Shown here piece after piece: positions 27,401 through 32,511 of a stretch of 64,000 nucleotides of DNA. Under the pieces are notes generated by a model. It worked only from the letters and a program-made list of their open reading frames with translations. It searched no databases and had not been told where the DNA came from. Position 1 is the stretch's first letter. Every line of letters starts with the position of its first letter. The stretch is from Halegenticoccus soli (GTDB taxonomy: Archaea; Halobacteriota; Halobacteria; Halobacteriales; Haloferacaceae). A program made the position numbers and the translations under genes. Where the stretch lies: positions 186,001 to 250,000 of the forward strand of contig NZ_PEND01000004.1 in NCBI RefSeq assembly GCF_002844195.1, given 5' to 3'.

Positions 27401-27538
27401 TTTATAACGGGCGTCTTAGGTATCGGTTGTACCCCTACCCAAGGTGGCATTGGCAAGTATCCCGGTTCGAGTCCGGCGCTGCGCCGGGCGGTCAGGACGG
27501 GGCGAACGGTAGTGTCGCCGTGCAGTACAATCAAAACC
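27401..27538 (+). promoter_or_regulatory. S-layer gene promoter and structured ~110-base leader
   Basis: TATA box TTTATAA at 27401-27407 places transcription start near 27428-27430, leaving a leader of about 110 bases before the ATG at 27539, unusually long for this window. The leader contains the hairpin CCGGC-GCTGC-GCCGG (27473-27487) and a second, GGCGA...TCGCC (27501-27519). From memory, haloarchaeal S-layer genes have leaders of about this length with hairpins, so a role in mRNA stability or translation is plausible. The upstream part (27194-27400) is an AT-rich spacer without other features. Confidence 0.6.
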
Positions 27539-29638
27539 ATGACAGCAAAAACGAACGACAAGATCCGCGGCCTGTTCCTGGCTGCGATGATGGTGCTCTC
27601 CGCGTTCGCGGGGGCCGTCGCATTCGCTGGTACCGCCGCAGCGGCGAATTCCAGCCAATACGACGCGGAACTGAGTCAATCGGGGACGACCACAATTTAC
27701 CAGGGACAGATTGCAGTCGCTGGAAATTTACAGTCGGGAGAAACGTACGAAATTCGTGAGTATGATGGCGAAAATGTTGGTTCGCTAGAGGCTCAGGCTG
27801 ATGCTGACACCGATGGCGACATCCTCATCGACACCACTAAACTCGAAAATGGGTTCTTCGCAGTCGAAGCCCCTGATGATTCGACTACTCACAAGTTCGA
27901 AGTCGTTGAGCAAGCCTTCTCTGCCGAGTTTGCAAATGAAGAAGTTGCAAACGACGAAAGCACGACGCTGACCATCGAATCTCGAAATCGTGCAGACGCC
28001 TTCGACGTGGTTGTCACGTCCGAGGACGCGAAATCGAGCTCGATTAAAAACATCTTCCCAGTCACCGAGACTGACATCGACGGAGATGGAGAGAACGAAC
28101 TTGTTCTCGAAGATGTTGAAGACGGAGCCGAGTTCACCGCTAACTTTGATGGTCGAAATATCGGCAACTACACCTTCGACTTCGAAGTTGCGGACACCAC
28201 GGCGTCTGACAGCGCTTCTGTCGAGGTTGTCAAGCCTGGTGATGAGAAGGTCAATCTTGTCGACCGCACGATACAGGTCGATCGCGGCGACTCTGTGACC
28301 TTCGAAGTTGAGCTTAAGAACACCCAAAGTGGTTACATCATCATCGGTGACGCTGAAGACGATGGCTTCGAGGTCAGGGCTGATCTCGTCGAAGGTGAGG
28401 AAGACGGTGTCGCCAACGTCACCCTGAACACGTACAAGTCGGGTGACACTGGGACCGCAGGACTCTCCGGCGACGTTGAGAACGTCAACGCCGTCGAAAC
28501 AACCTCCGGCGTCCTCGCCGCGGGCAACTACGACATCGAAGTCCGTACGTCTGAGAGCACGAGCGCGGACGACGTCGGCACGCTGTCCGTCATGGAGCGG
28601 TCGACCACCGGTGCTGGTACGTGGGTCACCTACGCAGATGTTGCCGATGACCTCGAAGACAGCGACGATGTCATCGAGGCTATCGAAAACAACCAGCTGA
28701 CGCAGACGAGTGACGTGGCTCAGAAGGATTACGCGGTCATCGCGGTTGAAGCCTCCGGGATCTACGGCTCGCTTGGCGACACGACTGGCGACAGCTACAA
28801 TATCGACACCGCCAGCGATGACGTGAGCGTCACCATCGAACAGACCAATCCGGCGAAGAACCGCGAAGCCAAGGTGTACCAGAACGAAAACCTTGAAATC
28901 ATCACGGACGACGAGCGTAACCTGCTCTTCTTCGTCATCGAGCTCGACGGTAACGTGCTTGACCGCAACGGTGCTGTCGGCTTCGAAGACGGCGACCGCT
29001 ATGAGGTCAACTTCACGGTCCTCGGTGACGGCAAGCTCGCTGAGGAAGACGAAACGGTGAAGACGTCCTTCACGGTTGACGACCGCAGCGTCTCTCTCGA
29101 TCTGAATGACGACGACAAGGTCGAGGTCGAGGCTTCCGAGAACGCGACCATCAGCGGAGACACCAACGTTGCGCCCGGCACGGACATCACGTTCCGTCTC
29201 CAGAGTGAGTCCGGCGCGGACAACCCGTTCTTCATGACGGAGACGATGAACGTCACCCAGGATGGTTCGTTCGAAGGCACCTTCGACTTCTCTGAAGTCG
29301 AGGCTGGTGCGTACTTCTCCGTGGCTGTCAGCGCGACTCCAGACCTGAGCGGTGAAACCTCGTTCGACGGCGTTGTCGTCGAGGCGCAGCCGGACGAGAC
29401 GACCACGGAGGAGAACGAGACGACGACGGAGACGCCGACGCCGACGGAGACGACCACGGAGACTCCGGAGCCGACGGACACCGACACCGCGACGCCCGAG
29501 CCGACCGACAGCAACGAGGGCGGCAACGGTGGCGGTGAGGACACCACGACGCCCGAGGAAGGTCCCGGCTTCGGTGTCGTCGTCGCGCTCGTCGCGCTCG
29601 TCGCCGCCGCGCTCCTCGCGGTCCGCCGAGAGAACTAA
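27539..29638 (+). CDS. S-layer-type surface glycoprotein with PGF-CTERM anchor
   Basis: 699 residues. A signal peptide (residues ~1-36, KIRGLFLAAMMVLSAFAGAV then AFAGTAAAA) leads to a long, acidic, beta-rich ectodomain with several N-glycosylation sequons (NSS, NYT, NVT, NFT, NAT, NET). A Thr/Glu/Pro-rich stretch (~625-665), likely O-glycosylated, precedes the C-terminal PGFGVVVALVALVAAALLAV plus RREN: the PGF-CTERM signal recognised by archaeosortase A, encoded next door. Start at the ATG at 27539; a GTG at 27512 in frame lies inside the leader. It is shorter than the 794-residue mature Haloferax volcanii protein but has the same architecture. GC is only ~50% over the N-terminal third and ~65% near the C-terminus. 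Confidence 0.88.
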   Translation: MTAKTNDKIRGLFLAAMMVLSAFAGAVAFAGTAAAANSSQYDAELSQSGTTTIYQGQIAVAGNLQSGETYEIREYDGENVGSLEAQADADTDGDILIDTTKLENGFFAVEAPDDSTTHKFEVVEQAFSAEFANEEVANDESTTLTIESRNRADAFDVVVTSEDAKSSSIKNIFPVTETDIDGDGENELVLEDVEDGAEFTANFDGRNIGNYTFDFEVADTTASDSASVEVVKPGDEKVNLVDRTIQVDRGDSVTFEVELKNTQSGYIIIGDAEDDGFEVRADLVEGEEDGVANVTLNTYKSGDTGTAGLSGDVENVNAVETTSGVLAAGNYDIEVRTSESTSADDVGTLSVMERSTTGAGTWVTYADVADDLEDSDDVIEAIENNQLTQTSDVAQKDYAVIAVEASGIYGSLGDTTGDSYNIDTASDDVSVTIEQTNPAKNREAKVYQNENLEIITDDERNLLFFVIELDGNVLDRNGAVGFEDGDRYEVNFTVLGDGKLAEEDETVKTSFTVDDRSVSLDLNDDDKVEVEASENATISGDTNVAPGTDITFRLQSESGADNPFFMTETMNVTQDGSFEGTFDFSEVEAGAYFSVAVSATPDLSGETSFDGVVVEAQPDETTTEENETTTETPTPTETTTETPEPTDTDTATPEPTDSNEGGNGGGEDTTTPEEGPGFGVVVALVALVAAALLAVRREN

Positions 29639-29719
29639 CGTTCTCTCGAACTCCCGTTCACTGCGTTCACGGGAACGCCGCGAAAACTAACGTTTTCGCG
29701 AGCCCCCACTTCCGTGGGG
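29628..29719 (+). terminator. Tandem hairpins at the 3' end of the S-layer gene
   Basis: Three strong stem-loops in 92 bases. GAGAGAAC-TAAC-GTTCTCTC (29628-29647) overlaps the stop codon; CGCGAAAAC-TAAC-GTTTTCGCG (29679-29700) has a 9-bp stem; CCCCAC-TTCC-GTGGGG (29704-29719) has a 6-bp stem. The first two share the loop TAAC, which in the first contains the stop codon. GCCGCGAAAACT recurs after the third hairpin (29722-29733). They probably act in termination or 3'-end protection of a very abundant mRNA; the shared loop is unexplained. Confidence 0.6.
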
Positions 29720-29947
29720 ACGCCGCGAAAACTGAGCGCTGAACCACCGGCGTCACGCCGGCCCCTTGCGATCCATTCTTTCGACGCTCGATCGACGAGC
29801 GGGCGCTATTTCTCGCCGGTCGAGTACCGTTCGGTCCTCCGAGAGCGACGCGTTGACGGCGGAAACGCAGCCGCGGACGGCGAATCCCGGAGCTCCGCCG
29901 ACCTACCAACGACAAGGCATTTATCGGCGCACGCCCACCTCGTCGGT
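29720..29947 (+). promoter_or_regulatory. Spacer with archaeosortase promoter
   Basis: Between the S-layer 3' hairpins and artA. CATTTATCG (29918-29926) is a TATA-like element 22-30 bases before the ATG at 29948, consistent with a leaderless mRNA and with artA being transcribed independently of the S-layer gene. No other signal is visible. Confidence 0.45.
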
Positions 29948-30901
29948 ATGCCCGGACCGCTCACCGACGCCTTCGCGTGGCTCGTGGTCGCCGCCTTCGG
30001 CGCGGGCGTCATCCTGGGGGGCCGGAACCGCGACGCCGGGCGGGTCGCGACCGCCGGGGCGTGGGGGCTGTTCGGGGCGTTCTGGCTGTCGCTGTTTCCG
30101 CACTTCGCGTTCGTCCAGAAGAGCTACGTCGAGGGAGTCCTCTCGCTCGCCGCGGTTCCGGCCTGCCTGTACGCCGGGGCGCTGCTCTACCGCGGCCGCG
30201 ACACCCTGTTCGTCCTCTCGCGCGCCGTCGCCGTCATGGGGCTCGTCTACCTGCCGTTCGAGACGATCCCCGCGCTCGTCGTCGCCGGGGTTCACCTGCC
30301 CGCGCCGCGGCAGGTGCTCATCCAAACCGTCGCGGCGCAGACGGAGGCGCTGATGAACCTCCTCGGCTACCACCCGGAGACGATCCCCGGCCCGCAGACC
30401 GGGTACGAGGACACCACGTTCCTGTTCGTCACCGAGTCCGGCCACCGGCTGACCTTCGAGATCGTCCTCGCCTGCACCGGGCTCGGAAGCGTGGCGATAT
30501 TCGCCGGGCTCATCGGGGCCGTGCGCGCCCCGTTGCGGCGCAAACTCCGCGCGCTCGCAATCGCCGTTCCGACGATCTGGGGACTCAACCTGCTCCGGAC
30601 GACGTTCATCGGCGTCGTCTTCGGCAAGCAGTACCTCCACGTCTACCCGGAGCTGGTGCTGTTTCTCTTCGGGGCCGAAGATCCCTACCGCGTGTCCTTC
30701 TTCCTCTCCGATCGCGTGATCAGCCAGGTGCTCGCCGTCTTCGCCCTCGTGGGGATCACCTACGCGGTCGTTCGGGTCCTGCCGGAGCTCCTGACCGTCG
30801 TCGAGGACGTGCTCTACCTGCTGACCAGGGAGGAGTACGACCTCCGCGACGCGCTCGGCGTCTCGGTTCCGCGCGCGGACGGCGGCGAGCGAGCGGAGTA
30901 G
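29948..30901 (+). CDS. artA: Archaeosortase A
   Basis: 317-residue multi-span membrane transpeptidase that processes PGF-CTERM proteins, allowing lipid attachment of surface proteins. About eight hydrophobic helices. The catalytic cysteine is in the exosortase/archaeosortase motif LACTGLGSV (~residue 175), and the conserved arginine in GLNLLRTTFIG (~217). Start at the ATG at 29948, supported by the TATA element; an upstream frame extension is Arg/Ser-rich shadow. Its location directly downstream of a PGF-CTERM glycoprotein fits enzyme and substrate. BtuF, 6 kb away, carries the same tail. Confidence 0.93.
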   Translation: MPGPLTDAFAWLVVAAFGAGVILGGRNRDAGRVATAGAWGLFGAFWLSLFPHFAFVQKSYVEGVLSLAAVPACLYAGALLYRGRDTLFVLSRAVAVMGLVYLPFETIPALVVAGVHLPAPRQVLIQTVAAQTEALMNLLGYHPETIPGPQTGYEDTTFLFVTESGHRLTFEIVLACTGLGSVAIFAGLIGAVRAPLRRKLRALAIAVPTIWGLNLLRTTFIGVVFGKQYLHVYPELVLFLFGAEDPYRVSFFLSDRVISQVLAVFALVGITYAVVRVLPELLTVVEDVLYLLTREEYDLRDALGVSVPRADGGERAE

Positions 30902-31790: not shown

Positions 31791-32096
31791 TCAGAGGTGT
31801 TCGATCCCCTGCTTGGAGACGTTCGCCCTGGTGACGACGTCGGGCATCCAGTCGGGCGTGTCGTCGGGCGACTCCTCCTTCCAGGCCCAGCCGTGGTAGA
31901 CGTGGACCTTGTCCGTCCCCTTCTCGCGCAGCCGGAGCACGGCGTGGTCGTCGACCTCCTCACGGCTCGGCGCGGGGTGGAGCCGACGGGCGGCTTTCAG
32001 CGCGGCCTGCCTCGGGGAGTTACCGCTGAAGACGCTCTCTTCGGTGCCGTCCTCCTCTCGGAGCGCGAAGTTTCGCTTGCCGTCTTCTCGTGGCAT
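31791..32096 (-). CDS. Non-histone chromosomal protein MC1
   Basis: 101-residue DNA-bending chromatin protein of the MC1 family. Hallmarks: RNFALREEDGTEESVFSG, PRQAALKAARR, LRLREKGTDKVHVYHGWAW and PDWMPDVVTRANVSKQGIEHL. Compared with methanogen MC1 there is an acidic insertion (SREEVDDHA) typical of haloarchaea. MC1 monomers bind and sharply bend DNA. Start at the ATG at 32096; an upstream extension is Arg-rich. Its AT-rich promoter lies at about 32130-32150, next to the candidate ncRNA region. Confidence 0.92.
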   Translation of the reverse strand: MPREDGKRNFALREEDGTEESVFSGNSPRQAALKAARRLHPAPSREEVDDHAVLRLREKGTDKVHVYHGWAWKEESPDDTPDWMPDVVTRANVSKQGIEHL

Positions 32097-32243
32097 CTCT
32101 GTGGTCCTCGGCTGTTCCTCTCGCCCCTCCGTAATTAATTTACATGCGGACCGGAGTGTTCGAACCCCGCCGCGACGGAGTCGGCCACCGATTTCCTCCC
32201 CGCGCCGTTCGCCAGAGTCGAACAATCATCCGTCTCTCTCGAA

Positions 32244-32511
32244 ACTATAAGCTCCCTGAGTGTGCCGGCAACAGTGTCATGTCGGCTCTCTTCTAAACTC
32301 GGTCGCCAGCAGGGGTGGGATCGCGTGCCCGAGTCCCGTTCGTACCCGAATTACTTCGTACCTCAAGGTGCCTCTGCTGGCGTTTCTTTGTGATGTGTTA
32401 TCCTGGCCACTAACCCGGTGCTGCGTGCCGATGAGACTCGAACGTTCGTGTCCGGTCCGCCACGTCAATGATCTGCGTGAGACGACGTGGTAAAATCGGG
32501 GCGTCCCCCGA
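32244..32511 (+). ncRNA. Candidate structured non-coding RNA (~240 nt)
   Basis: In the 478-base gap between MC1 and tRNA-Thr. CTATAA (32245-32250) is a TATA-like box; transcription would start near 32270. Downstream are: a 12-bp stem between 32304-32315 and 32371-32382 (all paired, one G-U), enclosing smaller hairpins such as CGAA-TTAC-TTCG (32348-32359); a 7-bp stem CCACGTC/GACGTGG (32460-32490); and a GC hairpin TCGGGG-CGTC-CCCCGA (32496-32511) suited to 3'-end formation. GC is lower than in neighbouring genes and the 77-codon frame across it (32260-32493) does not look coding. It lacks RNase P and SRP RNA consensus elements I would recognise. Entirely an inference from structure. Confidence 0.45.

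Follow-up and report, generated by a model that had tools for sequence, protein, structure and literature searches.

Introduction

The closest described counterpart of the locus analysed here is sRNA132 of Haloferax volcanii, a 138-nt intergenic sRNA that acts as a phosphate-starvation regulator, carries both a BRE and a TATA box, keeps a stable position between two genes, is present only in Haloferax and is predicted to base-pair with mRNAs (PMC6560208). In haloarchaeal sRNAs the TATA centroid lies at about -29 (PMC5892119).

The window, 64 kb of the 4.6-Mb genome of the haloarchaeon Halegenticoccus soli (G000:C4:186001-250000), contains a gap between an MC1 gene and a tRNA-Thr gene, for which the original prediction proposed a structured RNA with its own promoter. 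That proposal is supported for the 5' half of the gap, where promoter and core are conserved in a sister species, but not for the 3' stems at 32460-32511, which are unconserved. Our reading, to which we give a probability of about 0.6, is that 32246-32390 is an independent sRNA gene, confined to Halegenticoccus among the genomes searched. It is probably a small-RNA gene with its own predicted promoter that takes up the 5' half of the flagged gap only.

Gene order and conservation

Both flanking genes named in the original prediction were borne out. An S-layer-type glycoprotein gene and an archaeosortase A gene, both on the plus strand, are followed by dph5 and the MC1 chromosomal protein gene (31791-32096; Pfam PF05854), both on the minus strand, the latter bordering the gap. 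Beyond the gap are tRNA-Thr and a Trm5-type methyltransferase gene, both minus, and no plus-strand gene lies downstream of the RNA, the next feature being tRNA-Thr. The sole other congener in the comparison set, Halegenticoccus tardaugens, has the RNA block in the orthologous position between dph5 and tRNA-Thr. There the MC1 gene is missing from the corresponding place next to the block, and a gene for an FxLYD-domain secreted protein (L031 2906-3637), which starts ~150 bp downstream of the block on the same strand, lies between the block and tRNA-Thr; the block has therefore been retained while its neighbours changed.

Two further features of the neighbourhood can be recorded. The glycoprotein gene (27512-30901, plus strand), directly upstream of the archaeosortase A gene, encodes a PGF-CTERM surface glycoprotein that is related to ArtA-dependent S-layer glycoproteins and scores under the NCBIfam full-length cut-off; archaeosortase A is the enzyme expected to process this product, and a similar glycoprotein/archaeosortase pair is present in H. 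tardaugens (L031 7-261 and 383-1480). A simple GATCGATCGACC-type repeat (L031 2786-2851) lies immediately downstream of the RNA in H. tardaugens and gives a spurious mir-341 match in Rfam.

A DNA search of 60 relatives returned H. tardaugens as the sole non-tRNA match, over window positions 32246-32386, and a sensitive pairwise comparison extended the match to 32246-32397 (73% identity over 155 bp, E 2e-21). No other non-coding stretch of the gap can be aligned with H. tardaugens; in the same pairwise comparison the remaining gap up to the tRNA-Thr border gave no comparable collinear match, and the conserved unit ends near 32390. Conservation in relatives, on which the original prediction had staked its case, is thus seen in H. 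tardaugens for 32246-32397, but not in the rest of the gap or in other haloarchaea. The 7-bp stem CCACGTC/GACGTGG (32460-32466/32484-32490) and the GC-rich terminal hairpin (32496-32511, 6 bp) are present in the sequence as described, but neither has an H. tardaugens counterpart and the proposed transcript of ~240 nt reaching to 32511 is therefore unsupported.

Within the block conservation is modular, the promoter and the structured core being kept and the leader free to vary. Identity between the two species is 88% in the TATA region and 79% from the TATA box to the start, falls to 26% in the 5' leader (32281-32303), and in the core reaches 92% in the 5' strand of the closing stem, 90% in hairpin A and 82% in hairpins B and C; the 3' strand of the closing stem and the tail are each 62% identical. 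At the four-fold sites of dph5 and trm5 the two species are ~70% identical. Since the leader, at 26%, shows that unconstrained non-coding DNA is saturated here, the 80-90% identity in promoter and core indicates constraint. This constraint does not reflect an encoded protein, the outcome that had been named as speaking against an RNA: six-frame translation of both blocks revealed no shared open reading frame, and because the stops fall at different places and frame-shifting indels lie inside the core, the two species share no protein here.

Predicted promoter and transcript ends

The TATA-like box of the original prediction is present, its exact position being 32246-32251 (TATAAG, plus strand), and TATAAGC is identical in H. 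tardaugens. Just upstream is a BRE-like CGAAA (32240-32244, plus), which matches the haloarchaeal BRE consensus (PMC4983044) and is absent in H. tardaugens. Downstream, the 79% identical stretch CCTGAGTG..CCGGCA.CAGT.TCAT (32253-32280, plus) may be a promoter-proximal or initiator element. The combination TATAA-N14-CCGGCA was no commoner than its reversed control in 60 genomes, so it is not a general promoter motif. A pattern of TATAA..CCTGAG..CCGGCA with 2 mismatches allowed gave scattered matches in 293 genomes, none of them accompanied by the core. One haloarchaeon of another family (G044) carries TATAA-CTGAG-CCGGCA with identical spacing ~750 bp from tRNA-Thr (L011 723-755); the RNA core is absent there and the gene order is different.

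With the TATA centroid at -29, transcription is predicted to start near 32275 (32272-32278, plus strand), and the unconstrained 32281-32303 (plus) would form the 5' leader of the predicted RNA. A T-rich tract, TTTCTTT (32383-32389, plus), follows the core and is the likely termination region; TCTTTTCG occupies the same place in H. tardaugens.

Predicted structure of the core

The predicted structured core (32304-32382, plus strand) has three hairpins enclosed by a closing stem of 12 bp (32304-32315 with 32371-32382), and the stem is in the sequence, with its one G-U pair, as the original prediction had described it. Hairpin A (32317-32337, plus; GGGAUCG-CGUGCC-CGnnUCCC) has 100% of its cells paired. 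Hairpin B (32339-32350, plus; UUCG-UACC-CGAA) loses its outer pair in H. tardaugens, and hairpin C (32359-32370, plus; UACC-UCAA-GGUG) is weakly supported because its loop-closing C-G pair is lost there. Over the whole structure 92% of pair cells are standard, vs 34-49% when the strands are slid against each other. Nine continuous pairs of the 12-bp stem are present in both species; H. tardaugens has lost four pairs of the structure, two of them in the stem close to its open end and the other two in the small hairpins.

The 79-nt core alone folds better than its shuffles (z -3.4 and -3.0 for the two species), and RNAalifold gave z -3.5 for the two-species core with small flanks, matched by 0/500 column shuffles, while 2/500 did as well as the exact core; these strong z-scores come from core edges picked after the stem was already known. 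In an unbiased sliding scan the 80-nt window that scored best fell at homologous positions in the two species, with z a weak -1.6 in H. soli vs -3.4 in H. tardaugens; taken whole, the 266-nt region is indistinguishable in folding from its shuffles (z -0.19). A stem of at least 12 bp arose in 2/60 dinucleotide shuffles of the gap, so the stem alone is marginal evidence. Covariation in this stem, which had been named as support for the prediction, is partial: one A-U pair has become G-C (compensatory) and one G-U has become G-C (single-sided), but the 3' strand is 62% identical, and with just two sequences covariation is limited to these two changes. The two-species structure signal would therefore count as support for a folded RNA, not as proof of it.

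Distribution

A covariance model of the block (R1) was run with strict filters, which can lose divergent homologues, against 148 genomes of the family and 392 of the order, and with permissive filters against 40 relatives, and also against the dph5 loci of 80 named haloarchaea, 1.0 Mb in total. R1 matched just the two Halegenticoccus genomes, at ~180 bits and with one copy each, and gave nothing convincing in >400 other haloarchaeal genomes. In the 80 loci, which include the syntenic dph5-tRNA-Thr gaps of Halogranum, Halogeometricum, Halobium and Haloferax, it matched H. tardaugens alone. The examined matches below 23 bits lay in coding DNA or covered the promoter part only: L138, L136/L137 and L237 were inside or antisense to coding sequence, and L035 and L011 matched the promoter part alone, the gene order at L011 not being conserved.

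Rfam at permissive thresholds returned nothing at the gap beyond tRNA, and in the H. tardaugens spacer nothing but the low-complexity mir-341 match. RNase P RNA (RF00373) and SRP RNA (RF01857) were accordingly rejected, as the original prediction had anticipated. Like these RNAs the candidate is a structured non-coding RNA; unlike it, both have their true copies elsewhere in the genome, at C1:40205-40712 and C4:279119-279432, respectively.

Repeated CGURCC motifs

The motif CGURCC recurs along the core (32324-32372, plus strand), with three copies in H. soli (32324-32329, 32341-32346 and 32357-32362) and four in H. tardaugens, where GGUGCC at 32367-32372 is CGUGCC. A 6-mer of any sequence was equally repeated in 4% of shuffles for H. 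soli and 1% for H. tardaugens and, as the two species are not independent, the repetition is no more than a lead, and the copies could be sites either of repeated pairing or of protein binding. When complements of the loops were searched in both genomes, no target site common to both was found. Exact matches to the 13- and 15-mer complements occurred at the RNA locus alone in both genomes, and an 11-mer had four other exact sites in the H. soli genome, none homologous to the H. tardaugens site.

Alternative explanations

Among the alternatives to an sRNA gene, a control element acting at the DNA level, that is, a cluster of regulator sites with inverted and direct repeats at a promoter and no functional RNA structure, is unlikely, although the TATA-to-start stretch shows roughly the conservation of the core, proteins could bind at TGCCGGCA and at the CGTRCC repeats, and the evidence for the stem depends on one double change. 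Counted from the expected start, the core occupies the stretch 30-110 bp downstream, with an unconserved leader in front of it; conservation of the core follows the fold, and no plus-strand downstream gene is conserved in both species. The lack of a downstream plus-strand gene in the window, where the minus-strand tRNA-Thr comes next, equally makes it improbable that the block is a cis-acting 5' leader (riboswitch or attenuator); the FxLYD gene of H. tardaugens could be served by a leader of this kind, but a T-rich tract follows the core in both species. It is just as doubtful that we are looking at a chance structure without function in a slowly evolving spacer. The 12-bp stem appears in 3% of shuffles, and some similarity is expected between species as close as these (70% at four-fold sites), but outside the block the gap cannot be aligned, and within it the leader is down to 26% identity, so slow evolution alone does not account for the block.

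The original prediction had also offered a regulatory RNA, an atypical H/ACA guide and a mobile-element remnant, and the first of these remains the best option on the basis of sequence, whereas the other two fell away. An atypical H/ACA or C/D guide directing RNA modification is very unlikely. Haloarchaeal H/ACA guides are divergent and difficult to detect (PMC2584109), and like archaeal H/ACA guides the candidate is a small structured intergenic archaeal RNA, but unlike them it has no K-turn/K-loop, no ANA box and no haloarchaea-wide conservation (PMC4652768, PMC2584109), known haloarchaeal guides being kept across halobacteria. By inspection, the conserved hairpins of either species have no tandem G-A motif of a K-turn or K-loop, and the ANA box that a guide would carry past the stem, at 14-16 nt from its pocket, is lacking, UUUCUUUG / UUUUCGUC coming after the stem instead (UUUCUUU / UUUUCG). 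The conserved part also lacks a C box (RUGAUGA) and then a D box (CUGA) in order, with paired C'/D', and Rfam has no match there; the sole C-box-like sequence, GUGAUGU near 32390-32396, lies beyond the core and is missing from H. tardaugens. The 3' hairpin at 32460-32490 was rejected as an H/ACA hairpin, since it lacks both an ANA box at 14-16 nt and an H. tardaugens counterpart. The loop of this unconserved plus-strand hairpin, AAUGA...GUGA, resembles a K-loop. A mobile-element remnant with inverted repeats is still harder to credit: the stem is an inverted repeat and genes have come or gone within the gap (MC1 in H. soli, the FxLYD gene in H. tardaugens), but the block is present in one copy per genome at an orthologous position, its promoter is conserved along with its core, and no copies were found in the other haloarchaea, phages, plasmids and viral contigs searched.

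Proposed function and comparison with known systems

Returning to the reading of 32246-32390 as an sRNA gene, the candidate, as judged from its sequence features, is probably a regulatory RNA, young and of an ordinary sort, and probably acts in trans. TBP/TFB would start transcription near 32275, RNA polymerase would stop within the T tract at ~32385-32390, and the resulting 105-120-nt RNA would fold into a stem enclosing three hairpins. The least certain step is that the conserved CGURCC loops may act in trans, short base-pairing with mRNAs being the likeliest means (cf. Haloferax sRNA132). That the candidate is instead an archaeal multi-site decoy, its three to four CGURCC motifs, presented in the loops of a single closed structure, sequestering a single RNA-binding protein or a target RNA class, is a long shot; if true, it would be an archaeal analogue of CsrB-type titration that arose within one genus. 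CsrB/RsmZ-type RNAs are bacterial, protein-titrating RNAs with GGA as their repeated motif, and CsrA is not known from archaea. Like these RNAs, the Halegenticoccus candidate repeats a short motif in or near its loops, but unlike them its motif is CGURCC rather than GGA.

The candidate settles no larger question. Its modular conservation supplies exact ends and loops, and it would add one to the haloarchaeal intergenic sRNAs that are confined to a single genus and would support the view that sRNAs in archaea are quick to arise and remain lineage-specific. It lies between genes without a conserved open reading frame, as does sRNA132, and by sequence it has a basal promoter of its own, with the TATA box in both species and the BRE in H. 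soli only. R1 had no match in Haloferax, the genus of sRNA132, or in other members of the family searched. Unlike sRNA132, the candidate has different neighbours and is predicted to form one closed multi-hairpin structure, but like sRNA132 it is intergenic, of similar predicted length and with predicted stem-loops, has a predicted BRE/TATA promoter of its own, and is found as a single copy at a fixed genomic position in one genus only.
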